Positions 29,916 through 54,013 of a stretch of 64,000 nucleotides of DNA are shown piece by piece. The stretch spans positions 1,440,440 to 1,504,439 of the forward strand of contig NZ_CP008874.1 of NCBI RefSeq assembly GCF_001011115.1. The letters are read 5' to 3'. Each line of letters begins with the position of its first letter. Within the stretch, counting starts at the first letter, position 1. The notes beneath the pieces were generated by a model that was given only the letters and a program-made list of their open reading frames with translations, had not been told where the DNA came from and made no database searches. The position numbers and the translations under genes are program-made. The DNA is from Halanaeroarchaeum sulfurireducens (GTDB taxonomy: Archaea; Halobacteriota; Halobacteria; Halobacteriales; Halobacteriaceae).

Positions 29916-32900
29916 ATGCGAACACAGCACGAACGCGGAATCGCGATCGGAATTGCCCTCCTGGTCGTCCTTGGAGGCCTCGTCGGCCCGGTCGGCGCGA
30001 CGGTCGTCGCGTCGGACCCCGCCGCGACGGCTCCGTCTGAGGACTGTGCGTTCCCGGTCGAGCGCACCGACGCGACCGGGGAACCGGTGACCGTCGAGGA
30101 GGAACCGGAGACGGTCGTGACACTCAATCCCAGCGCGGCACAGACGATGTGGGAGATCGGTGAGCGGGAGAAAGTGAATGGCGTCTCCGAGTACGCGACC
30201 TATCTCGAGGGTGCGGAGGACCTCACAACCGTCGGGGCGTGGTCGGTGGATGTCGAGACCGTCGTCAAGCTCGATCCGGACCTGGTGCTCGCGCCCAACA
30301 CCGTCCCGCCAGAGACGGTCGAGAAGCTTCGAGACAGCGGGCTCACGGTCTACAAGTTCGAGATGGCGACGTCGCTCGCGGACGTTCAGTCGAAGACCCG
30401 GCTGACCGGCGAGCTGGTGGGGGCCTGTGATGCCGCCGACCGGCGGGCCGACGAAATGGTGGACACGCTCGCCGACCTTGAGACAGCCGTCGAGGGTGAG
30501 GACCGTCCGCGAGTCCTCTATCACATGGGCGGCGGCTACACGGCCGGCGAGGGGACGTTCATCGACAGCATCATCGAGGCCGCGGGGGGCACGAACGTCG
30601 CCGCGCAGGCTGGAATCGACGGATATGCCGAGATCAGTGAGGAAATCGTCGTCGAACAGGATCCGCAGTGGATTTTCACGAACAGCGACATCGGATCCGT
30701 CCCCTCGTCGAGCGGATACGAGCAGACCACGGCCCTCGAGAAGAACCAGACGCTGGTCGTAAACGCTAATTACGTGAGCCAGCCGGCGCCGCGCACCGTG
30801 CGCCCAGTCGAGGAGATTACGCGGTTCCTGCATCCGACCGCGTATCACGGGGCGATGTCGGACGGGATCGATTTCGACGAATCTCTCGACAGTAACGCGA
30901 TTCACTGGCGCGGCCAGGAGATATTCGTCGCTGATACTACCGCGGACCGTGACACCCTGACGCTCCGTCAGGTCGATGCGGATGGGGAACTCGCGGGAAC
31001 GCTGGTGAAACAGTTCTCGTTCTCCGACGGATCGACACAGGTGCTGGATACGGCGGAATACGAACCCGGATCCTACGCCTTCACCGAGGACGGTGACGTG
31101 ATCACCGTCGAGGACGGTACTGTAACGGCGGTGACCGATAGCTCCTCGGATGCGGTCGCCGACGGATCCTTCGCGATCGTCGAACAGACGTTCGCGGCCT
31201 CGTTCGTCGACGAGAATGGGGACCCCGTCTCCGCTATTTCCGGTTCGGGGGCGGGTGCGACGACCCCCGTCCGGTTCGAATCCAACCGAGCGAGCTACGA
31301 TGTCGTCGTCTCCAGCGATGACTTCGAATACGACGATCCTGAACTCGCCCGGACGGTTCTTCGATCGAGTGCGTTCGGCCGCGAGGACGTCAGGCTGGAT
31401 CACGATGCCGAGGAGTTCATCCTCGAGGGGGTCAGGGACGGTGCATACACGGTCGACTTCACCGACAGGGATCCCGGCACCTACGACTTCGAGTTCGAGG
31501 TCGTGGATACCGCAGTTGCGGACAACGCGTCCATCGCCATCACCGAGGGTGAGCCAGCACTCGAACTCGACACCAACTCCGCGTCGGTCCATCGCGGGGA
31601 CGTCGCAGAGATTGACATCGATTTCATCAACGGTGCGACAGAAGGGACGCTACTCGTCGGCGATCCCTCGACGGACGGATACCGGGCGAACGTCTCCCTC
31701 GTCGATGACGGCGATGGATCGCTCACCGTCGCCGTCAACACGTATCTCGCCGGGACGAACCCGTCCAAGGCCGACCACGCCGCCGGGGATATCATCTGGG
31801 CCGAATCGAACGGCGATCGAGCGACACCCGAGAATGGTGCCGATCCCTCGCAGGAACTCGACGGCCTGCTGGATACCGGCCGCTACGAGGTCGCCGTCGC
31901 CACGGAGAACGACGTCGATCGCGCCGCCGCAACCTCAGACGACGTCGAAACGCTCGTTGTCGAACCTCGGAAGACGCACGCGCTTTCCACGTGGCGTGTC
32001 GGGCCCGGGAACGCGGGCCACCTGGACGCACCGAGCGACATCCCGCGGCTCACCCGAAACAAAATTTTGACGGAAACCGAATTGGTGACGCCCGGGGACT
32101 ACCTCGTTGCCGAGATTTCCGCGAGCGGTCTGGAAGGACTGCTCGGCAGGGAGGCAGACCTCGACGACGGGGCCATCACCGACGACTTCGAGGACGCCAT
32201 CTCCCCCGCGAACACCTCGGCTGAGACCTGGAAGGGGCCGCGGACGGAATCCTTTGGGCTCTTCCTCGAAGCGTCTGACCCGGCCAAGAATCGAGAGCCA
32301 CGCCGCGTCGACCTCCACGACCGGGAATTCGAGACGGTCCTCTACAACGGAACCCAGGACACCTACTACGCCGTCGTCGACCTCGACGAGGTCGTGGACG
32401 AAAAACCAGGCGCACTCGACGAGGACACGACCTACGACGTCGTCTTTTCGGTGATGGACTCGCGACTCCTCGGGTACGACGAGTCCGCCTGGGCCACCGA
32501 GGGAGACGACCTTCACGAGACCGTCTCTGCATCGATCGCCGTCGAGGAGGCCGACGCCACGTTCCGAACCAAGTCCGTCCCGGACGGTGAGGGCGTCGTC
32601 GTGGCGCCGGCAGACGAACAGACTATCACGGGCCAAACGACGCTTGCCCCGGGTAGCGAGGTACTCGTTTCCGTGCACACGGACGGCCCGGATCCATTCG
32701 TCAAATCCGACTCCGCCGTGGAGGTTCTGCCAAACGGTACCTTTGCCACCGAGTTCGACTTCAGCGACCGCGGAGCCAACGAACCGTTCGAGGTATCCGT
32801 GTCTTCGCCCCGGTTCGAAGAAGAGACGGTGACGACGGAGGGATTCGTGGTGTCACCGGCGACAACGACAGCGGTCCCGACGCCCACCCAGTCCCCCACG

Positions 32901-33071
32901 ACCGAGCGTTCAACCGTCGAATTGACGGTCGAATCGACGGAGTCGACGGCGGCCGGAACCACATCGGCTTCGCCGGTGAGCGAGACGTCCCAGACCAGCA
33001 CGCCGGGGTTCGGCGTTCCCGTGGCCCTAGGGGGACTTCTCCTCGCATTGGTATTTTCCGTTCGTCCCTGA
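29916..33071 (+). CDS. Surface-anchored BtuF-like substrate-binding protein fused to surface-glycoprotein repeat region, PGF-CTERM
   Basis: A 1051-aa secreted protein. Residues 1-29 are a signal peptide (GIAIGIALLVVLGGLVGPVGA). Residues about 45-300 are a BtuF/FhuD-type helical-backbone binding domain (ETVVTLNPSAAQTMWEIG...LDPDLVLAPNTV...VLYHMGGGYTAGEGTFIDSII). Residues about 330-910 resemble haloarchaeal surface-glycoprotein beta domains (IHWRGQEIFVADT..., HALSTWRVGPGNAGHLDAP...LVAEISASGLEGLL). A Thr/Ser-rich stalk leads to TPGFGVPVALGGLLLALVF, a PGF-CTERM signal for archaeosortase. Ligand unknown; cobamide, heme or siderophore are options. No permease or ATPase gene lies nearby. Confidence 0.85.
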   Translation: MRTQHERGIAIGIALLVVLGGLVGPVGATVVASDPAATAPSEDCAFPVERTDATGEPVTVEEEPETVVTLNPSAAQTMWEIGEREKVNGVSEYATYLEGAEDLTTVGAWSVDVETVVKLDPDLVLAPNTVPPETVEKLRDSGLTVYKFEMATSLADVQSKTRLTGELVGACDAADRRADEMVDTLADLETAVEGEDRPRVLYHMGGGYTAGEGTFIDSIIEAAGGTNVAAQAGIDGYAEISEEIVVEQDPQWIFTNSDIGSVPSSSGYEQTTALEKNQTLVVNANYVSQPAPRTVRPVEEITRFLHPTAYHGAMSDGIDFDESLDSNAIHWRGQEIFVADTTADRDTLTLRQVDADGELAGTLVKQFSFSDGSTQVLDTAEYEPGSYAFTEDGDVITVEDGTVTAVTDSSSDAVADGSFAIVEQTFAASFVDENGDPVSAISGSGAGATTPVRFESNRASYDVVVSSDDFEYDDPELARTVLRSSAFGREDVRLDHDAEEFILEGVRDGAYTVDFTDRDPGTYDFEFEVVDTAVADNASIAITEGEPALELDTNSASVHRGDVAEIDIDFINGATEGTLLVGDPSTDGYRANVSLVDDGDGSLTVAVNTYLAGTNPSKADHAAGDIIWAESNGDRATPENGADPSQELDGLLDTGRYEVAVATENDVDRAAATSDDVETLVVEPRKTHALSTWRVGPGNAGHLDAPSDIPRLTRNKILTETELVTPGDYLVAEISASGLEGLLGREADLDDGAITDDFEDAISPANTSAETWKGPRTESFGLFLEASDPAKNREPRRVDLHDREFETVLYNGTQDTYYAVVDLDEVVDEKPGALDEDTTYDVVFSVMDSRLLGYDESAWATEGDDLHETVSASIAVEEADATFRTKSVPDGEGVVVAPADEQTITGQTTLAPGSEVLVSVHTDGPDPFVKSDSAVEVLPNGTFATEFDFSDRGANEPFEVSVSSPRFEEETVTTEGFVVSPATTTAVPTPTQSPTTERSTVELTVESTESTAAGTTSASPVSETSQTSTPGFGVPVALGGLLLALVFSVRP

Positions 33072-33254: not shown

Positions 33255-33672
33255 GAAATCACGACCCCCAGGCCTACACAGTCCAGGTACGTGAGGAGCC
33301 AGTCACCGTCACGCTGCGTGTGTGGTTTCACGAAGTAACGGATCTGATCGATCCAGAGAACACCACCGTTGTGAGTGAACTATCGCGGCCTCTCGGTATC
33401 CCTGTAATTGGCTAAAACGCGACATCGACGGTGCAGAATTGGGTGGTCAGGCGTCGCCGTCGTCAGTAGCCCGTTCCAGAAGATCGCGCACTCGATCGAA
33501 GTGCTGGGCGATCCGCTCGGCCATCGACTCGAACTCGTCGTCGCTTACAGGTCGCTTTCGTCTCTCACTCCGTGCCATCTCTCGAATCTCTCAACGAGAC
33601 GTTCGGCGTTCTCGCGGAAATCGTCTTCGGCAGCGTCGGACCCAAGGTTCGCGGAAATTGGAGAGTGTATTA
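33255..33672. other. Insert-like stretch between the two DUF368 end copies
   Basis: Part of the 598-bp gap between the surface protein and DUF368. It holds two overlapping minus-strand ORFs: one without a visible start codon (about 33665-33545, with AERLVERFERWHG) and a 43-codon ORF at 33447-33578. The rest (33255-33446) shows nothing recognisable. Direct repeats on both sides suggest an old insertion. Confidence 0.45.
33447..33578 (-). CDS. Possible 43-aa ORF, unknown function
   Basis: ATG at 33578, stop at 33447; basic start MARSERRKRPVSDDEFE, then a helix-like SMAERIAQHFDRVRDLLER and acidic end. It overlaps by 34 bp an upstream ORF that has lost its start. The paired, overlapping small-ORF layout recalls toxin-antitoxin genes, but no family is recognised and it may be a relic. 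Confidence 0.25.
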   Translation of the reverse strand: MARSERRKRPVSDDEFESMAERIAQHFDRVRDLLERATDDGDA

Positions 33673-34605
33673 GTATGTGATTTCGTCGGTCATCGCGTCC
33701 AGGCCGAGTACGGCGACAGCGCCCAGCACCGCCCAGCCGACCAGCCCCCCGGCCACGACCGGGGTCCACTCGGGCGTGGCAGCGAGCACCCTGTCGCCCG
33801 GCGCGCGAAGCGCCCCCACCATGAGGGCGACGAGGAAGGTCATCGTCTGCACCCTGTGGTGGGTGAGCGCCCACGCGACGATCCGGGCGAACGAAAGGAT
33901 GCCGACGAGCGCGCCAGTCGCGAAAACGAGGAGCGTCGTCAGGGGCGCGACGGCGAGACCCGGATCGAGGGCGAACGCGGCAGCCGTGAGAGCGTCGACC
34001 GCCCCGACGATGGTCTCGTACTGGCCGAGCGTGAGCAGGATGAGCGAGCCCGAAATCCCGGGAAGAACCATCGCGGAGATGCCGATCACCCCCGAGAGAA
34101 AGAGGACGACCGGTCCCGACCCGATCGCCCCGCCGGAGAGCCCGCTCACGAGGTAGGCGAGCCCGAAGCCCACGAGAGCGACCGCCCAGCCGGCGGGCGA
34201 CGTCAATACTAACTCGCCCCGGAGGACGATCACGGAGGCGACGATCAGCCCGAAGAAAAAGGCGTAGGTCGGTCCGGCGTGGGCGCCGACGGCCCACTCG
34301 ATGACGTTCGCGGCGGTGAGCGCGGCGGTGACCACACCGACGCCCAGCACGATTAGAAACGGGAGATCCATGACGCTCGCCCGGCGGATCGCAGACCGGC
34401 GGGCCGCGGGATCGCGCGAGCCCACGACGTCGCGGAGGAGGCCCCGGGCGCCCGCCACGTCGAGGGCGGCGATCGCGCCGACAAGCCGATCGTAGATGCC
34501 CGTGATGAGCGCGATGGTGCCACCCGAGACGCCGGGGACCGCGTCGGCGGCGCCCATCGCGAACCCCTTCAGATAAACGGTCAGGAGTTCGCGGGCGTCA
34601 GTCAT
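33670..34605 (-). CDS. DUF368 membrane protein, candidate polyprenyl-phosphate transporter
   Basis: A 311-aa protein with about eight to ten hydrophobic segments. The family signature GFAMGAADAVPGVSGGT is at residues 14-30, and a second repeat-like segment is MVLPGISGSLILLTLGQY. DUF368 proteins (PopT) and DedA proteins have been reported as carriers that return undecaprenyl phosphate to the inner leaflet in bacteria. Here the start overlaps the aglB stop by 4 bp, so a role in recycling dolichyl phosphate released after N-glycosylation is a natural inference. The 3' end is partly duplicated downstream. Confidence 0.9.
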   Translation of the reverse strand: MTDARELLTVYLKGFAMGAADAVPGVSGGTIALITGIYDRLVGAIAALDVAGARGLLRDVVGSRDPAARRSAIRRASVMDLPFLIVLGVGVVTAALTAANVIEWAVGAHAGPTYAFFFGLIVASVIVLRGELVLTSPAGWAVALVGFGLAYLVSGLSGGAIGSGPVVLFLSGVIGISAMVLPGISGSLILLTLGQYETIVGAVDALTAAAFALDPGLAVAPLTTLLVFATGALVGILSFARIVAWALTHHRVQTMTFLVALMVGALRAPGDRVLAATPEWTPVVAGGLVGWAVLGAVAVLGLDAMTDEITY

Positions 34606-37600
34606 GCGGACGGGTCGATCGGGGCAACCGACTCGGTGCTCTCGGTGGTCGCCGTCTCGTTACCCGCCGTCGCGCCCTCGGGCTCCTGGAGAATCTCCTC
34701 TTCCAGCTCGACGGTCACGGTCGCATCGTCCTCGCCGACGACCTGACCCTCGGTCACGTGTTCGGTGCCGGTGTACGTGGAGATGGTGAGGTTCTCGTCG
34801 GCGCTGGGGGCCGTGCTGAACTGGTAGGGGCCGGTCGCTTCGACGTTGACGTCGGTGTACCCCTCCTCGGTGCCCCACTCGTCGTAGCCGGTCGAGGCGT
34901 AGGGAAGGGTCATCTCGAAGCTGCCATCCGCGTCAGTCTGGGCGTGCTGGGTGTAGGTGAACGAGGTGTTGCGGGAGGGAATCTCCAGTTCGACCTCCGC
35001 GGTGACCTCGCTATCGGCGGGGCCCTGTCCCGCGACGGTCGCACCCGGTACCCGTTCGAAGAGTTTGACGGCCCGCTCGTCGGGATTGTCCGGTCCCTCG
35101 TTGATCTTCACTAGCCGGTAGTGCTCGAGGGCCTCGACGCGCTCCTCGGGGATGTTCTGGAAGCCGCCGATCTGCGCGGACCCGTCCTCCTCGACGTACT
35201 GCTGGGCCTCCTCGAGGCTCTGGAAGTCCTGGTTCACCAGCTGGCCGTCCTCGGGGACGACGGGGATCCGGACCGGACCCTGGGCCGTCTCGACGGTGTC
35301 GGTATCCCAGTCGACGACCACCGGTGCCGGGTCAGCGGCGGAGCCGTGGAAGGCGTAGAGACGGACCATCTGGGACTCGTAGTAGCGTTGAGTGCGCAGG
35401 GTTGCAGCCCGCTGGACGCCCTCGGACTGCTCGCTCACCTGATAGATGGTGCGCTGGGTGTCCCGCTGTGAGAGATTGCCGTCGGTGTAGAAGGTGACGG
35501 GCGCGCCGAATTTGCCCTCGACCATCTGCCAGTCGACGGCGACGTATTGGACTTTCGCGTCGTCTTCCTCGACGACCTCGAGGGTGTCGGCAGCGGTCGC
35601 CTCGTCAGGGGCGAGCAGGTAGTTCGCAGCCTCGGTCGCGTGCTGCTGGAAGGGGTTGGCGACCGGGATCCGATGGCCGAGAACCGTGATCCAGTGGCCG
35701 TAGTCCCACCAGCTCATTACACCATAACTTCCCTCGGGGTAGTCGAAGTCGTCGGTGTGCTCGTAGGTGCCCTGGTACTCGAGCTGGTCGGCGTTGCCAG
35801 CCCCGGCGTAGTTCCCTTCCGCGGGGGTGTTGTCCTGCATCCAGTCGAGGGTGTCGTCCCACTGGGTCACCGATCCGGGGCCGGTGGCGTCGCCGACCTG
35901 CCAGGCGGGCTGTTTCTCCAGAGTCCGGCCCTGGTCGTTCGTCAGCCCGACCGGGACCGCGAGCGGGACGACCAGGAGAAGCAAAACGGTCGCGATGGCG
36001 AAGTAGGCGTTCCAGTCCGGCTCGGTCAGTTTCTCGAGGTCGATCGAGTAGTCGAACCACTGGAGGACGTAGACCGGGAGGTACGCCGAGAGGATCGCCA
36101 CGGGGACCGCGAGATAGTAGTTAAAGCGGACCTGGGTGAACGCGGCGGAGAGCATGAAGATGGTCCAGACCACGAGCAGCATGCGCTCGCCGTCGTAGGT
36201 TCCGACGACTGCGGTCATCGCCAAAAGGGCGCCGACGACCACGATGCCGGCGATGGTCGGATCGACGCCGAAGAGGCCGCCAAGGGCTTGGGGGATGGCC
36301 GGAATCCCGAGGAAGAGCCCCGTCACCGCTGGGACAGCGACCGCGAGGCCGAGTTCGCGGACGTCCCGCGTGCGGGTGAGCGGTTCGAGCAGCAGGATGG
36401 CGAGCATGCCGACCGCGAGGAAGAAGGCAAGGCCGTACTCGTGGAAGAGGACCTCAGGCTGGGTCAACCCGTACTGCTGGGCCATCGAGAGCGGGAACGG
36501 CTGGGCCTCCCCGATGGTACGCATTTCGGCGCCGGCGGAGAAGCCCACGAAACGGATGAGGTTGGAGGTTACGAGGGAGAAGAGACGGGGGAGCGCGACC
36601 GAGACCACGCCCGCACCCACCGCGAGGATTCCGAGGACGGCGCCCGGGTAGTACCAGGGATCGATGTCTCTCGTCTCCCAGACGCGGGCGAGCCACGCGA
36701 GGAAGGTCGCGCCGGCGGCGACGGCCAGCGGGAAGACGACCTGGGTGAGCGTAAAGCCGGAGACGCCGAAGCTGGCGTTCTCGAGGCGGGCGAGCATGAG
36801 GACGGCCGTGACGGTCATCGAGACGGCGGCGGCAATGCCGAGGTGTTCGGGGCTCGTGCCGTCGACCATCTCGCTGGTCATCTGGACGAGGACGAAGACG
36901 CCGAAGACGCCGACGAGGAGGATCCCCGGCGGCCAGACGTACATGTAGAGGGCCATGGCGACTCCGGCGAGGGTGGCGTAGCCGAGGACGCGCCGGAGTG
37001 AATCGTATTCGAGGCCGCGGAGTTGCTCCCAGACGGGTTTCTCGCGCTGGGCGACGCCGATGGCGACCAGCAGGGCAAAAATCGCGAGGGACATAAATAG
37101 CGGCTCGGCGATGTTGTGGTCGGCCGTGCCGACCAGCGAGCGCGAGAGGATCGTTCCCGGGAGGAGCGCCAGGACGGCCGCGGCGAGAAGGCCCGTGATG
37201 CGGCCGCCGAGGCGGGCGCCGATGAGGTAGGTGGGGAGGGCGACCAGGGCACCGAGAATCACGGGCGCGAAGGCGGTCACCGTGGCGATCTGCTGGGTTG
37301 ACGGGTCACCCAGGCCGACCACGAGGGCAGCGGTGGCGATCAGCTGGTCGAAGAGGGTGCCGAAGTGGCCGGCGTGGGTGCCCAGCGGGAAGTTCGTCCA
37401 GATATCGAAGGGGCTCGTCGCGGGGTAGTTCTGGACGGTGTAGGTGATCTGGCGGAGGTGGTACCACGGGTCGTTGCCGCCGAGGTACACCTCGCCGTCG
37501 ACCACGAAGTTCGACCACGACCGCTGTCTGACCCAGACCATGAAGGCGAAGATAAGCGTCAGGACGGGGAGGTGATACCAGTCCTCGAGGAGGGCGGTGA

Positions 37601-37655
37601 TTCTGTCGGTGTCGAGGCCGGCAGAATCGGCGTCTGTCTCGGCGTCGTCGCTCAT
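34602..37655 (-). CDS. aglB: Archaeal oligosaccharyltransferase AglB (STT3 family)
   Basis: Transfers lipid-linked glycans to Asn of secreted proteins such as the S-layer glycoprotein. It is 1017 aa: about 13 membrane segments up to residue about 580, then an extracytoplasmic domain. Seen: the first-loop acidic GGNDPWYHLRQ, the loop SLVGTADHNIAEPLF, and the hallmark SWWDYGHWITVLGHR at about residue 640. The C-terminal 200 residues form beta-rich modules ending in a Thr/Glu-rich tail. It is divergent from the GT2 gene at 37960, and its stop overlaps the DUF368 gene. Confidence 0.97.
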   Translation of the reverse strand: MSDDAETDADSAGLDTDRITALLEDWYHLPVLTLIFAFMVWVRQRSWSNFVVDGEVYLGGNDPWYHLRQITYTVQNYPATSPFDIWTNFPLGTHAGHFGTLFDQLIATAALVVGLGDPSTQQIATVTAFAPVILGALVALPTYLIGARLGGRITGLLAAAVLALLPGTILSRSLVGTADHNIAEPLFMSLAIFALLVAIGVAQREKPVWEQLRGLEYDSLRRVLGYATLAGVAMALYMYVWPPGILLVGVFGVFVLVQMTSEMVDGTSPEHLGIAAAVSMTVTAVLMLARLENASFGVSGFTLTQVVFPLAVAAGATFLAWLARVWETRDIDPWYYPGAVLGILAVGAGVVSVALPRLFSLVTSNLIRFVGFSAGAEMRTIGEAQPFPLSMAQQYGLTQPEVLFHEYGLAFFLAVGMLAILLLEPLTRTRDVRELGLAVAVPAVTGLFLGIPAIPQALGGLFGVDPTIAGIVVVGALLAMTAVVGTYDGERMLLVVWTIFMLSAAFTQVRFNYYLAVPVAILSAYLPVYVLQWFDYSIDLEKLTEPDWNAYFAIATVLLLLVVPLAVPVGLTNDQGRTLEKQPAWQVGDATGPGSVTQWDDTLDWMQDNTPAEGNYAGAGNADQLEYQGTYEHTDDFDYPEGSYGVMSWWDYGHWITVLGHRIPVANPFQQHATEAANYLLAPDEATAADTLEVVEEDDAKVQYVAVDWQMVEGKFGAPVTFYTDGNLSQRDTQRTIYQVSEQSEGVQRAATLRTQRYYESQMVRLYAFHGSAADPAPVVVDWDTDTVETAQGPVRIPVVPEDGQLVNQDFQSLEEAQQYVEEDGSAQIGGFQNIPEERVEALEHYRLVKINEGPDNPDERAVKLFERVPGATVAGQGPADSEVTAEVELEIPSRNTSFTYTQHAQTDADGSFEMTLPYASTGYDEWGTEEGYTDVNVEATGPYQFSTAPSADENLTISTYTGTEHVTEGQVVGEDDATVTVELEEEILQEPEGATAGNETATTESTESVAPIDPSA

Positions 37656-37863: not shown

Positions 37864-37959
37864 CCCCACCCACGTTGTTTGGTTCTCTGCTTCGGTCGGT
37901 GGTTCTCGTTCTCGTCTGAGAACGGAAATCTTATCGGCGGGGTAGCGGAACCCTCGTCC

Positions 37960-38895
37960 ATGGTCGATCTGGTCTCCGTGGTCATTTGCACCTACGACAT
38001 GGAGCGCTACCCCGTCTTCTCGGAGGCCATCGAGAGTGTTCGCGAGCAGACCTACGAGCCCATCGAGATCGTCCTCGTCATCGACGGGAACGAGGCGGTG
38101 TACGAGCGGACGGTCGAGGATTACGGGGACGTCGAGAATATCTCCATCTACAATAACGAGGAGAACAAGGGGATATCGTACAGTCGCACACGCGGAGGCG
38201 AGCTGGCCTCGGGGGACGTCGTCGCGTTCATCGACGACGACGCGGTGGCCGAACCGGACTGGATCGAGACGCTGGTCGATGTCTACGAGACGACCGACGC
38301 CATCGCGGCCGGGGGCGACGTCCGGCCGAACTGGCAGACCGAGAAGCCGGCCTGGTTCCCCGCGGAGTTCTACTGGCTCGTCGGTGTGGTCGAACCCGGG
38401 TTCGCCGAGGACGGCGAGGAGGTGCGCAACGTCTACGGGTCGAACATCTCGTATCGACGCGAGGCGTTCCTCGAAGTCGGCGGGTACGACCCCAAGACCG
38501 GCCGGAAGGGGGACAAGCACCTCCAGGCGCACGAGGCGCCGGTCGGGATTCGGCTACTGGAGGAGTACGGCAGGGGCATGGTGTTCGTCGAGGACGCGGT
38601 GGTCCACCACACGCTGTTCGACTACCGGGGGGACTTCGGGTGGCTGGTGTCGCGGTCGTTCTGGCAGGGGTACTCGAAGCGCGTGATGGACCTGCTGTAT
38701 CCCGACGCGCCGGACAGCAAGAGCGCGTACCTGGAGCAGTTACTGACGCACTTCGTGCCGAAGCGCGTGCAGGGGTTGGTGCGGCGGCCGTCCGTGGCGG
38801 CGGTGTTGCAGTTGGTGATGATCTTCGTGTTTACTGGTGCTGTCGGGTTGGGGTATCTTTATGCGGTGTTGCAGCCTAATCTTTTGGAAGGGTAA
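37960..38895 (+). CDS. Glycosyltransferase family 2 (AglG/AglE-like)
   Basis: A 311-aa enzyme that probably adds one sugar to a dolichol-linked glycan on the cytoplasmic face. Seen: the GT-A opening LVSVVICTYDMERYPVFSEAI, the DxD-type metal site VAFIDDDAVAEPDW, GSNISYRREAFLEVGGYD, and a C-terminal hydrophobic anchor VAAVLQLVMIFVFTGAVGLGYLYAVL. The ATG at 37960 (MVDLVSVVICTYD) is preferred to 37879. It is the gene next to aglB, outside the pair of IS6-like elements. Confidence 0.9.
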   Translation: MVDLVSVVICTYDMERYPVFSEAIESVREQTYEPIEIVLVIDGNEAVYERTVEDYGDVENISIYNNEENKGISYSRTRGGELASGDVVAFIDDDAVAEPDWIETLVDVYETTDAIAAGGDVRPNWQTEKPAWFPAEFYWLVGVVEPGFAEDGEEVRNVYGSNISYRREAFLEVGGYDPKTGRKGDKHLQAHEAPVGIRLLEEYGRGMVFVEDAVVHHTLFDYRGDFGWLVSRSFWQGYSKRVMDLLYPDAPDSKSAYLEQLLTHFVPKRVQGLVRRPSVAAVLQLVMIFVFTGAVGLGYLYAVLQPNLLEG

Positions 38896-40816: not shown

Positions 40817-40830
40817 CAGCATTGATTTAC

Positions 40831-41754
40831 ATGTACTCCCTCGCCCAGGTAAAGCGAGGACTTTCTCATCCGAACTTGATCATCCGCGAATTCAATCGAC
40901 TCTACCACACGCGCCTCGATAGTCTACGATACAACGAGGCGGGGTTCGGCCTCATGGAAGCAGACTGGGATTTCTGCCATATCCTTGACGCCTGTCGCTA
41001 CGACATGTTCGCAGAGCACTCGTCACTCCCGGGTATGCTCTCGAAGCGCGTCTCCCGCGGGTCGAACACCGTCGAGTTCCTCCGCGGGAATTTTGAGACG
41101 GGGACATACCACGACACGGTGTATGTCACCGCCAATCCTCAGTACCGTCGGTATGAGAACCAGTTCGACGCCGAGTTCCATGATGTCGTTGATGTCTGGG
41201 CTAACGACGGCTGGGACGACACGTACAATACCGTTCTCCCCGAGACAACGACCGAGTACGCCCTTGAGGCCGCCGATCGGTACCCCCACAAGCGCCTCCT
41301 CGTACACTTCATCCAGCCCCACTACCCATTTCTTGTCCCCGACTCGACGTTCGACAAGACCCATCTTCACGACGAAGGCGCCGAGACAGACGACTTCTGG
41401 CATCGCATCTTCTATGGGGAACTGGACGTCGACCCCTCGTACGTTTGGTCCCTGTATCGTAAGTCACTCGACGAAGCGCTCCCCCACGTAGAGCGACTCC
41501 TGACATCGGTTGAGGGTAAACACGTCGTCACGGCCGACCACGGTAACATGGTCGGCGAACGCGCCGCGCCACTCCCCGTTCGAGAGTGGGGCCACCCCGA
41601 GGGGATTTACGTCCCCAAACTGGTCGAAGTGCCGTGGCTTGAGTACACGAACGGCGAGCGTCGGCGCGTGACCCCAACCCGACCCCGACAAGGGACAAGC
41701 GTCGATGACAACGCGGTACGGGAACGCTTACGGACGCTGGGATATCGGGAGTGA
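40831..41754 (+). CDS. Sulfatase/alkaline phosphatase-superfamily protein
   Basis: A 307-aa protein of the alkaline phosphatase-like fold common in haloarchaeal surface-glycan loci. Seen: WDFCHILDACRYDMFAEHSSL (metal-site Asp and the CR nucleophile region), HFIQPHYPFLVPD, and VTADHGNMVGER with the second metal site. No signal peptide, so it probably acts on cytoplasmic glycan intermediates, as a phosphate- or sulfate-ester transferase or hydrolase. The ATG at 40831 fits the TATA position; a TTG three codons upstream is an alternative. Its stop overlaps the GT10 start by GTGA. Confidence 0.8.
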   Translation: MYSLAQVKRGLSHPNLIIREFNRLYHTRLDSLRYNEAGFGLMEADWDFCHILDACRYDMFAEHSSLPGMLSKRVSRGSNTVEFLRGNFETGTYHDTVYVTANPQYRRYENQFDAEFHDVVDVWANDGWDDTYNTVLPETTTEYALEAADRYPHKRLLVHFIQPHYPFLVPDSTFDKTHLHDEGAETDDFWHRIFYGELDVDPSYVWSLYRKSLDEALPHVERLLTSVEGKHVVTADHGNMVGERAAPLPVREWGHPEGIYVPKLVEVPWLEYTNGERRRVTPTRPRQGTSVDDNAVRERLRTLGYRE

Positions 41755-43777: not shown

Positions 43778-45574
43778 TTATGCCTTCGACTGAATCTCGT
43801 ACAATTCCGCATACTCCCCACCCTTCTCCAACAACTTCTCATGCGTCCCCGCCTCGACGATCTCTCCACTATCGACCGTATAGATCACGTCAGCGTTCTG
43901 CACCGTCGACAGCCGGTGCGCGATAGCGACCATCCCGTACTCTCGATCCATCGACTCGATGGACGCCTGCACCTCCCTTTCCAGATTCGAGTCCAGATCG
44001 CTGGTCGCCTCGTCCAGCACCAGCAAATCGGCGTCCTTCAACAGGGCCCGCGCGAGCGCAATCCGCTGTCGCTGGCCACCCGAGAGCCGAACCCCGTCGT
44101 CACCCAACTGCGATTCGTAGCCGTTCGGCAATTCGTCGACGAATTCGTTCACCTTCGCGATCTCACAGACCTGCTCGACCTCACTACGCGTCGCGTCCCG
44201 CTTCCCGATGGTCACGTTGTTCTCGAGCGTGTCGTTGAAGATGAACGGCTGCTGGCGCACCACCGCAATCCGCTCGCGCCACTCCCGAAGACCGAATTCC
44301 CCGATCGAAGTCCCATTGGCTCGGATTTCCCCCGCGTCGGGCTCGTACATCCGCGCCAGCAGGGACACGATCGTCGACTTCCCCGCACCCGATTGCCCGA
44401 CGAACGCGATGAACTCCCCCTTCGAGACATCGAAGCTGATCCCGTTCAGAACGGTCTCATCCTCGGTGTAGGAGAACTCCACGTCGTCGAATTCCACGTC
44501 GCGAATCTCCTCGATCGACCGATCTCCGTTCGACTCGTTTCGAGAATCCAGATCGCGAACGAATCGTTGCGTTCGAACGAGATGCGAGAGGTTCCCCTCC
44601 AGACTGTACACCTGACTGTTCAGACGACTCGCCAGCGGCGAGAGCCTGAACATGGCGAAGAGGAAGATCCCGAGCGCTCCGAGGGAGAGGCCCGAATAGG
44701 TGAAGCCGACGTAAATCAACGCGAAGAGCGACACCGCGGCCGCCAGATCGTATCCATTCTGGAGCGCGGCCTTGTTGCGAGACAATTTGATCGAGGATTC
44801 CGTATACCGCGTGATCGCATCACGGAACTCCGCGAAAACCTCCCGAGAGAGGTTGAACAACTTCACGTCGCGAATCCCCTGGGTCCCCGCTTGCACAGAC
44901 TGCTGGACGGACTCGTTGGCCTGGGCGACCCGATTCCCGATCGTGTACCCCGGTTCGAGGACCTCTCGCAGGAGGTACGTGATCCCCCCGAGCAAAACGA
45001 TTGCATAGACCGTCATATCCGGAGCGATGTAGACCATGATGGCCAAATAGACGCTCACCAGCGCGAGCGTCTCCATAGCTTGCACGCCCAGTTGGATTAC
45101 CTTCCCCGAGTACCGCGTTTCGGTGATGATCGCGTTGAGGATGTCGTCGGAACCCTCGTCGTCGAAGTAGCCGATTCGGGCGTTGAGCGCGGCGCGGAAC
45201 GCCTCTGTCCGCAGGTACTGCTCGTAGTCCCGCTGGAGGATGGCCTTCATCCAGGCGACGGTGAACGAGGAGGAGAAACGCACCGTCATCACGATCGAGA
45301 TGCCGACGATGAGTGGCCCCAGTTCGAACGGAATCCCCAGAAATTCGTAGACCTGCAAAAAGAGCCCCATGATCGTGTCCTGCGGGGTGACCTCCCCTTC
45401 GGACTGTGCGACTTCCATAATCGGATAGATGAAACTCAGGCCGATCCCCTCGAGAAACGCGGTCAGGCCCCCCAGTGCGACGATCGGGAGCACGAACAGC
45501 GGTCGGTATTTCACGACCTGGACGACGGCATCGAGTTTCTCCCGCCAGGTGATTTCCTCGGAACTGTCGACCAT
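43778..45574 (-). CDS. ABC exporter, fused membrane and ATPase domains (PglK/MsbA-like)
   Basis: A 598-aa half-transporter. Residues about 25-320 contain six membrane segments; residues about 350-598 are the ATPase with Walker A GQSGAGKST, Q-loop VRQQPFIFNDTLENNV, signature LSGGQRQRIALARALL, Walker B LLVLDEATSDLD and switch His in AIAHRLSTV. The ATG at 45574 (MVDSSEEITWREKL) is chosen over 45691. In Campylobacter, PglK of this type flips lipid-linked oligosaccharide. Its place beside aglF and glycosyltransferases makes a similar flippase role plausible, but drug or lipid export cannot be excluded. Confidence 0.88.
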   Translation of the reverse strand: MVDSSEEITWREKLDAVVQVVKYRPLFVLPIVALGGLTAFLEGIGLSFIYPIMEVAQSEGEVTPQDTIMGLFLQVYEFLGIPFELGPLIVGISIVMTVRFSSSFTVAWMKAILQRDYEQYLRTEAFRAALNARIGYFDDEGSDDILNAIITETRYSGKVIQLGVQAMETLALVSVYLAIMVYIAPDMTVYAIVLLGGITYLLREVLEPGYTIGNRVAQANESVQQSVQAGTQGIRDVKLFNLSREVFAEFRDAITRYTESSIKLSRNKAALQNGYDLAAAVSLFALIYVGFTYSGLSLGALGIFLFAMFRLSPLASRLNSQVYSLEGNLSHLVRTQRFVRDLDSRNESNGDRSIEEIRDVEFDDVEFSYTEDETVLNGISFDVSKGEFIAFVGQSGAGKSTIVSLLARMYEPDAGEIRANGTSIGEFGLREWRERIAVVRQQPFIFNDTLENNVTIGKRDATRSEVEQVCEIAKVNEFVDELPNGYESQLGDDGVRLSGGQRQRIALARALLKDADLLVLDEATSDLDSNLEREVQASIESMDREYGMVAIAHRLSTVQNADVIYTVDSGEIVEAGTHEKLLEKGGEYAELYEIQSKA

Positions 45575-45806
45575 TGGAAGTTGCTTGTGCTTCCGTGCCT
45601 CCGTTGATAAGGATGCTGTTTCCGCGCATACCCTTTCGACTGGACAGTTTCGTGGCCCTTCCCCGACCCACGTTTCTCGAAGTCTGGCCAATCAACCGGG
45701 CGGGAATGAACGGGGCAGGGGCTTTCGCTGTATCAGTGCCAATCTCTTTGCAGTTCCAATCCGCCCAACACAACCTATTTCCCACCAAACCACTCACAAC
45801 GAACCA

Positions 45807-46535
45807 ATGCAAGCAGTCGTCCTCGCCGCCGGCAAGGGCACCCGCCTCCGCCCCCTGACGGAAGACAAACCCAAGGCGATGGTCGAAGTCGATGGCAAAC
45901 CCCTCGTCGCACACGTCTTCGACCGCCTAATCGAATTGGACGCCTCCGAACTGATCGCCGTCGTCGGCTATCAGAAAGAACAGATCATCGAGCACTTCGG
46001 CGACGAGTATCGCGACACGCCCATCACCTACGCCCACCAGCGCGAGCAGGCGGGCCTTGCCCACGCCCTCCTCACCGCCGAGGAGCACATCGACGACGAC
46101 TTCATGCTGATGCTCGGGGACAACATCTTCCAGGCCAACCTCGCGGACGTCGTCAACCGCCAGCGAGAGAACCGCACCGACGCAGCCTTCCTCGTCGAAG
46201 AGGTCCCCTACGAGGAGGCCTCCCGCTACGGCGTCTGTGACACCAACGAGTACGGCGAGATCGTCAACGTCGTCGAGAAACCCGAGGACCCGCCGTCGAA
46301 CCTCGTCATGACGGGCTTCTACACCTTCACGCCGGCCATCTTCCACGCGGCCCACCTGGTCCAGCCCTCCGACCGCGGCGAGTACGAACTCTCGGACGCC
46401 ATCGACCTGCTCATCGAGTCCGGGCGAACGATAGACGCCATTCGCATGGACGGCTGGCGAATCGACGTGGGCTATCCCGAGGATCGGGACGAAGCCGAGG
46501 AGCGACTGCAGGAGCTCGAGGCCTCTGCGAAATAA
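45807..46535 (+). CDS. aglF: Sugar-1-phosphate nucleotidylyltransferase, AglF-like
   Basis: Makes an NDP-sugar from a sugar-1-phosphate; 242 aa. Seen: the N-terminal MQAVVLAAGKGTRLRPLT with the nucleotide signature, KPKAMVEVDGKP, the metal site LMLGDNIF, VEKPEDPPSNLVMTGFY and GWRIDVGYPEDRDEA. The whole sequence follows the pattern of Haloferax volcanii AglF, a glucose-1-phosphate uridylyltransferase of N-glycosylation. UDP-glucose from it could feed the AglM-like dehydrogenase at 61.7 kb. It is divergent from the ABC exporter across 232 bp. Confidence 0.9.
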   Translation: MQAVVLAAGKGTRLRPLTEDKPKAMVEVDGKPLVAHVFDRLIELDASELIAVVGYQKEQIIEHFGDEYRDTPITYAHQREQAGLAHALLTAEEHIDDDFMLMLGDNIFQANLADVVNRQRENRTDAAFLVEEVPYEEASRYGVCDTNEYGEIVNVVEKPEDPPSNLVMTGFYTFTPAIFHAAHLVQPSDRGEYELSDAIDLLIESGRTIDAIRMDGWRIDVGYPEDRDEAEERLQELEASAK

Positions 46536-47144: not shown

Positions 47145-47408
47145 ATGAGCACGGACGAACCCGAAGTAACCACCGTGACCTCGAAGGGGCAGATCACGAT
47201 CCCGAGCCGCCTGCGAAAACAGTTCGGCCTCGAAAAAGGAACGAAACTGATGGTCGTTCCGACCGACTACGGGCTCGTCTTGAAAAAGCTCGAACTCCCG
47301 TCGGTCGAAGAGTTTCAAAAGCGGGTCGAGGAGCGAGCCGAGGCGGTCGATCTTTCGGCGGAAGAGGTCGACGAACTAGTACACAAAGCCCGGGGAACTG
47401 GTGAATGA
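47145..47408 (+). CDS. AbrB/SpoVT-type antitoxin
   Basis: An 87-aa DNA-binding antitoxin. Residues 7-50 form the swapped-hairpin AbrB fold (TVTSKGQITIPSRLRKQFGL then GTKLMVVPTDYGLVLKKL). The rest is an acidic helix that would wrap the toxin (EEVDELVHKARGTGE). The stop overlaps the PIN gene start by ATGA, typical of a toxin-antitoxin operon; the complex should repress its own promoter. Confidence 0.9.
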   Translation: MSTDEPEVTTVTSKGQITIPSRLRKQFGLEKGTKLMVVPTDYGLVLKKLELPSVEEFQKRVEERAEAVDLSAEEVDELVHKARGTGE

Positions 47409-47812
47409 AGGCGGTTCTCGATACGAACGTCCTCATCTCGAGTGTCATCGCGACCGGCGTCCCCCACGACGTCGTCGTCAAGGGTTTCAGCGGTGAATAT
47501 GGAATTATCGTCTCCGTCGCGACACTGACTGAATTTCGCGAGACGCTACTCAAATATCCCGACCGTTTCGGTATGGAGGAAGACGAAGTCCAGGAAGAGG
47601 TCGAAACGATTCGCTATTTCGCGGAATTCGTCGAGCCGGAAGATGACATCTCCGCTGTTGAAGCTGATCCGGACGATGACAAGTTTCTCGAAGCCGCTGT
47701 TGCCGGCAACGTAGATTATGTCGTATCCGGTGATCGGCACCTCCTCGATTTGGACTCGTTTCGGGACATCGAGGTCGTCACGCCGCGTACGTTTTACGAG
47801 ATGCTCGATTGA
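47405..47812 (+). CDS. PIN-domain toxin (VapC-like)
   Basis: A 135-aa PIN ribonuclease. Acidic active-site residues are seen in MKAVLDTNVLISSVI (Asp6), TLTEFRETL (Glu), and ADPDDDKFLEAAVAGNVDYVVSGDRHLL (two Asp). Translationally coupled to the AbrB-type antitoxin. VapC-type toxins cut tRNA or rRNA; the target here is unknown. The pair sits between two copies of a short gene tail. Confidence 0.9.
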   Translation: MKAVLDTNVLISSVIATGVPHDVVVKGFSGEYGIIVSVATLTEFRETLLKYPDRFGMEEDEVQEEVETIRYFAEFVEPEDDISAVEADPDDDKFLEAAVAGNVDYVVSGDRHLLDLDSFRDIEVVTPRTFYEMLD

Positions 47813-48000: not shown

Positions 48001-48138
48001 ATCCGCTCCAGACGGAGTCACGCCGGTCAACTTCTTCTCATGCCATTGAATCGAGACACATAGGGTGTGATACGGCGTCTAGGGAAATACTGGGGTATCA
48101 CCGCAAAGAAGTTACTCCCCACGCTCGAACGACAGAGT

Positions 48139-48432
48139 ATGGGAGACGCCGAAGCGATTCGAACCGAACTCGCCGCACTCAAATCGGAACTCGAGGGGGA
48201 GTACCCGATTCGGGATCTCGGCGTCTTCGGATCGTATGCCCGGGACGAACAGGGGCCCGAGAGTGATCTCGATGTCCTCGTCACGTTCGACCGGCCGGTC
48301 TCGCTCTTCGAACTCGTCCGACTGGAGAACGAAATTTCAGACCGACTCGACCGTGATGTCGACCTCGTCACTCGCGAGTCGCTCAAACCCCGAATCAGGT
48401 CGGCCGTCGACGAGGACGTCGTCTACGTATGA
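48139..48432 (+). CDS. MNT-domain nucleotidyltransferase (MntA-like antitoxin), unpaired
   Basis: A 97-aa minimal nucleotidyltransferase. The signature GVFGSYARDEQGPESDLDVLV gives the GSx10DxD motif, and the third acidic residue is in DVDLVTRESLKP. MntA proteins AMPylate and silence HEPN toxins (HepT) encoded beside them. No intact HEPN gene adjoins it, but HepT-like relics lie on the opposite strand at 49.0 and 50.1 kb. The ATG at 48139 (MGDAEAIRTEL) is chosen over 48067. Confidence 0.88.
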   Translation: MGDAEAIRTELAALKSELEGEYPIRDLGVFGSYARDEQGPESDLDVLVTFDRPVSLFELVRLENEISDRLDRDVDLVTRESLKPRIRSAVDEDVVYV

Positions 48433-49225: not shown

Positions 49226-49654
49226 TCACGCGTCTTCAGGCTTGAACCGTTCGACCACACCGTCGAAGTCGTCGAAACTCAGTATCGAATCGATATCGTG
49301 AAAGCGCACCAGTACCACGCTCATCGCATCGGTGAAACTGAGTTCGTGGTCTGCGTACGCTTCGTACACCGAGACGGCGTCCGCAAACAGCGACGGAGAC
49401 GAGTGCAGCAACTCGATCGCATTCGGATACCCGTCTCCACGAATTCGGCGACCGACCGCGACCCCGTCAGCAACCCGACCGGTTCGTCGCTGCGTGAGCG
49501 TCACCACTTCGTCGTAGACGTAATCGCTCGTGTAGACCCGCCCATATTCTTGCGAGCGAAAAATTGCCTCGAGGGCGGAGACGGCACTCTCGTGCCGACT
49601 CGCATCGGTGTCATGGTGGGCATACAGGACGCCCGTGTCGACGAAGACGCTCAT
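49226..49654 (-). CDS. PIN-domain toxin (VapC-like)
   Basis: A 142-aa PIN ribonuclease. Active-site acids are seen in MSVFVDTGVLYAHHDTD (Asp6), DYVYDEVVTLTQRR (Glu), and LSFTDAMSVVLVRFHDIDSILSFDDFD (two Asp). Its ATG overlaps the stop of the upstream RHH antitoxin by 4 bp. The pair lies between two HepT-like relics on the same strand. Confidence 0.9.
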   Translation of the reverse strand: MSVFVDTGVLYAHHDTDASRHESAVSALEAIFRSQEYGRVYTSDYVYDEVVTLTQRRTGRVADGVAVGRRIRGDGYPNAIELLHSSPSLFADAVSVYEAYADHELSFTDAMSVVLVRFHDIDSILSFDDFDGVVERFKPEDA

Positions 49655-52995: not shown

Positions 52996-53092
52996 AATTC
53001 ATGGGTTCGGGACTCACGGAGCCGGGCCGACGATGACCTGATCCGTGCGACCGAAGGCAAATCTTTTCCACTCATCCGACCACACTTCCGGT

Positions 53093-54013
53093 ATGCCGGA
53101 TTACGAGGACGTCTGTGTACTCATTCCGACCCTCGACGAGGCGGCGACCATTGGCGACGTGGTCGACGGCCTCGAAGCTGAGGGCCTGGAGAACGTCCTC
53201 GTCGTCGACGGGCACTCCACGGATGGAACCCAGGACGTCGCCGCCGACCACGGCGCGCGCGTCATCGAACAGAGCGGGGAGGGAAAGGGCCAGGCCGTTC
53301 GCGAAGCCCTGGAGTACGTCGACGCCCCGTTCGTTCTCATGCTAGACGGGGACGGTACCTATCGGCCCGACGAGGCCCACCGATTGCTGGAACCACTTCT
53401 CGATGGCCAGGCCGAACACGTCATCGGCGACCGCTTCGCGAACATGGAGCCCGGAGCGATGACTCGGTTCAACAAAATCGGAAACCGTCTCTTCAACGGG
53501 ATATTTCGCCGAATCCACGGCGAGGACTTCGCGGACATCCTCTCGGGCTATCGGGCGTTCACACTCGAGTCTGTGGAGAAACTCTACCTCGGCGCCGAGG
53601 GCTTCGGCATCGAGACCGAGATGGCCGTCGAATGTGCCAAACACGACGTCCCCACGGCGGTCGTCCCCATCACCTACGGGGCGCGCCCCGAAGGGTCCGA
53701 TACGAACCTCCGTCCGATCGCGGACGGCGGGCGCATCCTGTACACCCTCTACTCGCTCGCGAAGACCTCGAATCCGCTGTTCTACTACGGGAGCGTCGGC
53801 GCGGTGTCGCTGTTCGTCGGGCTCCTGCTCGGGGCGTACGTCGGCTACGAGTGGTTCGTCTCGGGGGTCTCCCACGAAGTCATCGCAGTACTCGCGACGC
53901 TGGCCCTCCTCTTCGGAGGGATGCTCGTACTGTTCGGGTTCCTCTCGGACCTCATGGTGACGCTGCATCGGGAGCAACTCCGGCGCATCGATCGTCTGGA
54001 CGAAAAGCGGTGA
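53093..54013 (+). CDS. aglJ: Dolichyl-phosphate glycosyltransferase AglJ
   Basis: Adds the first hexose of the N-glycan to dolichol phosphate in Haloferax; 306 aa. Seen: a DPM1-like GT2 domain with VCVLIPTLDEAATIGDVVDG, VVDGHSTDGTQDVA, the metal site LMLDGDGTYRPDEA and DILSGYRAFTLESVEKLY, then two membrane segments (SVGAVSLFVGLLLGAYVGYEW and VIAVLATLALLFGGMLVLFGF). The ATG at 53093 (MPDYEDVCVLIPT) is chosen; a TTTTCC-flanked AAATCTTTT box lies about 28 nt upstream. It works with AglB although 15 kb apart. Confidence 0.9.
   Translation: MPDYEDVCVLIPTLDEAATIGDVVDGLEAEGLENVLVVDGHSTDGTQDVAADHGARVIEQSGEGKGQAVREALEYVDAPFVLMLDGDGTYRPDEAHRLLEPLLDGQAEHVIGDRFANMEPGAMTRFNKIGNRLFNGIFRRIHGEDFADILSGYRAFTLESVEKLYLGAEGFGIETEMAVECAKHDVPTAVVPITYGARPEGSDTNLRPIADGGRILYTLYSLAKTSNPLFYYGSVGAVSLFVGLLLGAYVGYEWFVSGVSHEVIAVLATLALLFGGMLVLFGFLSDLMVTLHREQLRRIDRLDEKR

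Follow-up and report, generated by a model that had tools for sequence, protein, structure and literature searches.

The DUF368 protein encoded beside the oligosaccharyltransferase gene aglB in Halobacteria is probably the transporter that returns the used lipid carrier of N-glycosylation to the inner side of the membrane. To our knowledge, the return of dolichyl phosphate to the cytoplasmic leaflet after N-glycosylation has not been settled in archaea. Haloarchaeal AglB is understood to use a glycan linked to dolichyl monophosphate. AglJ carries out the first charging of dolichyl phosphate on the cytoplasmic side, and is hence a consumer of recycled carrier. In the cycle proposed here, cytoplasmic assembly of the glycan on dolichyl phosphate would be the work of AglJ and the other Agl transferases, after which a flippase would carry the dolichyl-linked glycan outward. 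AglB would move the glycan to asparagine, leaving dolichyl monophosphate on the outer leaflet. Because the AglB substrate is monophosphate linked, what is left outside would be dolichyl phosphate itself, with no dephosphorylation needed before its return. DUF368 would bring it back to the inner leaflet, where AglJ would recharge it. PopT/VCA0040 (DUF368, PF04018, COG2035) is the inward undecaprenyl-phosphate translocase of Staphylococcus aureus and Vibrio cholerae. A transporter of this type would be the expected step after AglB, with AglJ as the expected consumer. We infer that DUF368 moves dolichyl phosphate, that it does so inward, and that it mainly serves N-glycosylation.

We analyzed a 64,000-nucleotide stretch of Halanaeroarchaeum sulfurireducens DNA (the window), in which the two genes lie on the reverse strand (Table 1). 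A preliminary description of this DNA had reported that they overlap by 4 bp. The overlap is real: both open reading frames are present, and ATGA can be read directly, with the aglB stop TGA at 34604-34602 and the DUF368 start ATG at 34605-34603. This start is consistent with the N-termini of relatives. The gene identities given in that description were confirmed by the PF04018 and TIGR04154 matches, and from these sequence matches both family assignments are certain. AglB scored 896.3 bits against TIGR04154 (archaeal STT3/AglB, archaeosortase-A-associated oligosaccharyltransferase; cut-off 450). It has STT3, AglB_core-like, and AglB_L1 domains (Pfam PF02516, PF22627, and PF18079), the catalytic motif WWDYGH (as WWDYGHW) is found in its translation, and it matches the Archaeoglobus fulgidus AglB structure 3waj (E 1.2e-51). 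Right behind the DUF368 gene, at 33454-33670 on the same strand, are two short overlapping reading frames encoding similar charged, helical-looking peptides (MARSERRKRPVSDDEFESMAERIAQHFDRVRDLL... and ...DDFRENAERLVERFERWHGVRDESDL). They may represent a small gene or one disrupted by a frameshift.

Table 1. The aglB-DUF368 pair and associated glycosylation genes in the window
Feature	Position	Strand	Basis
DUF368/PopT-family membrane protein, 311 aa; predicted inward polyprenyl (dolichyl) phosphate transporter	33670-34605	-	PF04018, E 5.2e-61
Second conserved motif MVLPGISGSLILLTLGQY, DUF368 residues 179-196	34018-34071	-	Conservation; helix break in model
First conserved re-entrant-type motif DAVPGVSGGTIALITGI, DUF368 residues 21-37	34495-34545	-	Conservation; helix break in model
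ATGA overlap, aglB stop/DUF368 start	34602-34605	-	Direct sequence reading and ORF ends
aglB, archaeal oligosaccharyltransferase, 1017 aa	34602-37655	-	TIGR04154 and domain matches
AglG-type glucosyl-dolichyl phosphate glucuronosyltransferase, divergent from aglB	37879-38895	+	NF041394, 497 bits (cut-off 440)
ABC transporter, MsbA/HepA/PglK-like	43778-45691	-	All matches below cut-offs
AglF-type UTP--glucose-1-phosphate uridylyltransferase	45807-46535	+	NF041313, 434.8 bits (cut-off 400)
AglJ glycosyltransferase	53045-54013	+	TIGR04182, 444.7 bits (cut-off 325)

Membership of the DUF368 protein in a polyprenyl-phosphate transporter family, as the preliminary description had it, was borne out by PF04018 ("Undecaprenyl phosphate translocase-like"), which it matched at 206.8 bits (cut-off 26) over positions 1 to 227 of the 246-position profile. 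It scored 185.6 and 111.5 bits against the bacterial PopT equivalogs NF052564 and NF052563, both below the cut-off of 400. Therefore, it is a relative rather than a member of these equivalogs. It shares with PopT/VCA0040 the Pfam family, two PGxSG motifs, and a two-fold internal repeat. The motifs, of the re-entrant type, are at residues 24-28 and 182-186. P24, G25, S27, and G28 in the first, and P182, G183, S185, G186, and Y196 in the second, are kept in at least 90% of 130 relatives, bacteria included. About 50 positions are common to bacteria and haloarchaea at that level (at least 90%) in the same set, which contains Vibrio sequences. Residues 1-155 and 156-311 align with 98.2% probability and 27% identity; judged from this alignment, the two halves are homologous, as expected for the PopT type, for which a two-fold repeat with re-entrant loops has been described (PMC10216114). 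A confident AlphaFold2 model (pLDDT 87) has helices broken at both PGxSG motifs. No solved structure resembling the protein was found by sequence, or by fold at an E value under 0.001, and it had no match to PF09335, the VTT domain of DedA/UptA proteins. Unlike PopT, haloarchaeal DUF368 forms a separate branch, is linked to an oligosaccharyltransferase, and would be expected to act on dolichyl rather than undecaprenyl phosphate.

AglJ (at 53.0 kb), AglF (45.8 kb), and AglG (37.9 kb) are all encoded near AglB, as in a haloarchaeal agl cluster. They score above curated cut-offs, and the window also encodes further glycosyltransferases and an ABC transporter. Therefore, it is a haloarchaeal N-glycosylation island. 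AglJ, AglF, AglG, and AglB are shared with the Haloferax volcanii agl cluster, as is a DUF368 gene beside aglB or just past aglM, whereas the ABC transporter and the other glycosyltransferases set the window apart from it. This setting might also suit a DUF368 protein that is itself the lipid-linked oligosaccharide flippase, exporting the glycan-charged carrier instead of recycling the empty one, and knowledge of the outward flippase in haloarchaeal N-glycosylation is incomplete. We regard that role as extremely unlikely. Undecaprenyl phosphate is the substrate of the bacterial relatives, one of which the H. volcanii protein can partly replace (PMC9876793). The ABC transporter of the island, itself a candidate outward flippase for the lipid-linked glycan, would be a better choice for export.

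The island and its flank contain other genes of interest. At 40822-41754 (+), inside the island, is a gene for a 310-amino-acid protein that had no Pfam or NCBIfam match; it overlaps a GT10 fucosyltransferase-like gene by 4 nt. A lower-GC stretch that separates aglF and aglJ carries genes for small PIN-like (VapC-type) and nucleotidyltransferase-like proteins (47405-47812, +; 48067-48432, +; and 49226-49654, -), which by eye look like toxin-antitoxin modules. A 1,051-amino-acid protein encoded at 29916-33071 (+) has an N-terminal periplasmic-binding-protein domain (PF01497), DUF7827, and a long surface-protein-like tail.

DUF368 was present in 289 of 292 Halobacteria genomes. We took the 6-kb flanks of DUF368 from Halobacteria and other archaea, added 18 further genera, and located aglB by profile. 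Among 76 haloarchaeal genera, 50 carried DUF368 immediately after aglB in the same orientation, and 4 more had it within 2.5 kb. The linked genera cover nine of ten families (f1-f4 and f6-f10 in our numbering), with examples in Haloferax mucosum, Halorubrum coriense, Halolamina salifodinae, Natrinema ejinorense, Haladaptatus salinisoli, and Halorhabdus amylolytica. Because it recurs in so many genera, the pairing is not a matter of chance. The two genes were unlinked in the remaining 22 genera, many of which have a separate DUF368 lineage. Outside Halobacteria, aglB was not found within about 6 kb of DUF368 in the sampled loci, and the neighbors that we checked were unrelated (e.g., uracil permease, aquaporin-like, and helicase genes). 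The adjacency that the preliminary description had proposed to look for across archaea is therefore conserved in Halobacteria but absent from the sampled loci of other archaea.

The spacing of the pair is less constant than its order. Gaps in 66 linked loci ranged from -4 to 157 nt and were 8 nt or less in 31, with single values that may be off since start codons of relatives were chosen by rule. With spacing this variable, the ATGA overlap characterizes just one part of the class. An aglM-like UDP-glucose dehydrogenase gene intervenes between aglB and DUF368 in four loci (L092, L097, L108, and L109), three of which have it in the opposite orientation. Therefore, cotranscription of aglB and DUF368 is not required in those three, and the coupling by overlap described at first, which is present in H. 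sulfurireducens, is not general. It is doubtful that AglB works with DUF368 as one functional, perhaps physical, unit in haloarchaea, handing spent dolichyl phosphate to its own return transporter. If it does, DUF368 would be the first carrier recycler to be assigned specifically to N-glycosylation.

To place the linkage against local background synteny, we clustered the neighbors at 65 haloarchaeal DUF368 loci by similarity. That background is real, and the loci do not count as independent events. aglB was a neighbor in 51 loci. Next came a gene for a GlpB-like FAD protein (26 loci) and an AglG-like GT2 gene, divergently placed at the AglG-type position (23 loci). Within the linked DUF368 lineage, aglB was within 6 kb in 51 of 54 loci. 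It is the sole neighbor kept in nearly all loci of this lineage, well above the local background. Shared ancestry in a slowly rearranging region may explain part of the linkage. Taken to its extreme, this would make the pairing an old accident of gene order, with haloarchaeal DUF368 moving some other lipid or an ion. The counts are inflated by common descent, and the surroundings are partly conserved too, as the GlpB-like and AglG-like genes show. However, aglB is retained about twice as often as any other neighbor, polyprenyl-phosphate transport is the known activity of the family, and the core residues of DUF368 are conserved from bacteria to haloarchaea. An accident is thus very unlikely.

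A quick maximum-likelihood tree placed nearly all haloarchaeal DUF368 sequences in one group (SH-aLRT 99), which also took in two sequences on long branches that belong to other families of the phylum. The aglB-linked state occupies the basal branches and most of the others. Twenty-four unlinked sequences form one clade (SH-aLRT 99) that is scattered across four families and is never beside aglB (loci L062, L063, L064, L066, L075, L076, L079, L081-L083, L117, L163, L165-L175, and L196). It looks to have spread by transfer or old duplication, and in three genomes (G005, G044, and G131) it occurs alongside a second DUF368 copy. We found no conserved neighbor of this lineage in the loci examined. 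Six other unlinked sequences are scattered in the tree. In the unlinked genomes that were checked, aglB was elsewhere in the genome and had no DUF368 remnant behind it.

This unlinked lineage, with no aglB nearby, might point to a general haloarchaeal recycler of polyprenyl phosphate that serves all dolichyl-phosphate envelope pathways (N-glycans, exopolysaccharide, and Dol-P-hexose donors). It would be selected by high-sodium or alkaline conditions, and linkage to aglB would reflect an inherited cluster without dedicated coupling. DUF368 is near universal in Halobacteria even where unlinked, it adjoins unrelated genes in other archaea, and the bacterial protein is important when sodium and pH are high (PMC9876793). 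We consider a general recycler unlikely, since on its own it leaves unexplained why aglB is retained in the linked loci when other neighbors are lost.

Recycling of the N-glycosylation carrier by DUF368 would not extend to all archaea. The preliminary description had called DUF368 "the archaeal dolichyl-phosphate recycling carrier," which proved too broad. In a phylum-wide draw it was present in 52 of 53 Halobacteria genomes versus 37 of 242 others, so that about 85% of the latter lack it. It was not detected in the controls Methanocaldococcus jannaschii, Sulfolobus acidocaldarius, and Methanosarcina acetivorans, in which STT3/AglB-like and DedA matches were present. One haloarchaeal genome (G021, family f5, 98% complete) has aglB (C31:27971-30568, locus L283) and AglJ without DUF368; it has two DedA matches and is a natural test case for replacement of DUF368 by DedA. 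UptA/DedA (PF09335) is the other polyprenyl-phosphate-recycling family and is different from DUF368. H. sulfurireducens has four DedA proteins, none encoded near aglB and one weakly UptA-like (the best match to the UptA model was 58.9 bits, against a cut-off of 250), and these four could share the recycling job. With DUF368 missing from the controls and G021, and four DedA genes here, DUF368 is not a universal archaeal recycler and may be redundant in this organism. We also considered two genomes that lack both aglB and DUF368 (G186 and G205) as evidence of co-loss and rejected them. Both are fragmented drafts (160 to 180 contigs) that retain aglJ, and therefore an assembly gap is likelier.

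An existing experiment bears on the archaeal protein. The H. volcanii DUF368 protein HVO_RS12060 partly complements a V. cholerae Δvca0040 mutant (Sit et al., PMC9876793), and it was the sole functionally tested archaeal DUF368 that we found. H. volcanii aglB is HVO_RS12050 (PMC5131992, PMC7749143), and aglG, aglI, and aglF are HVO_RS12045, HVO_RS12040, and HVO_RS12035 (PMC7749143). By these locus tag numbers, from which alone the adjacency is read, HVO_RS12060 follows aglB by two tags and closes the agl cluster. The cluster has been published as aglJ to aglM, and DUF368 is not counted as a member (PMC5867893). Our literature search found no transport or glycosylation results on any archaeal DUF368 mutant and no earlier mention of DUF368 together with N-glycosylation. 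Roney and Rudner (2022-23), whose synteny analysis of PopT is known to us as cited by PMC10216114, may report the pairing.

The gene pair joins two lines of work, that on PopT, in which HVO_RS12060 appears and the text of PMC9876793 does not contain "aglB," and that on the Haloferax agl genes, in which the cluster ends at aglM. DUF368 is a strong candidate for the recycler in Halobacteria, and the pair singles out one candidate in a group amenable to genetics. Because the pairing persists across most haloarchaea, the missing carrier-recycling step of N-glycosylation is directly testable.
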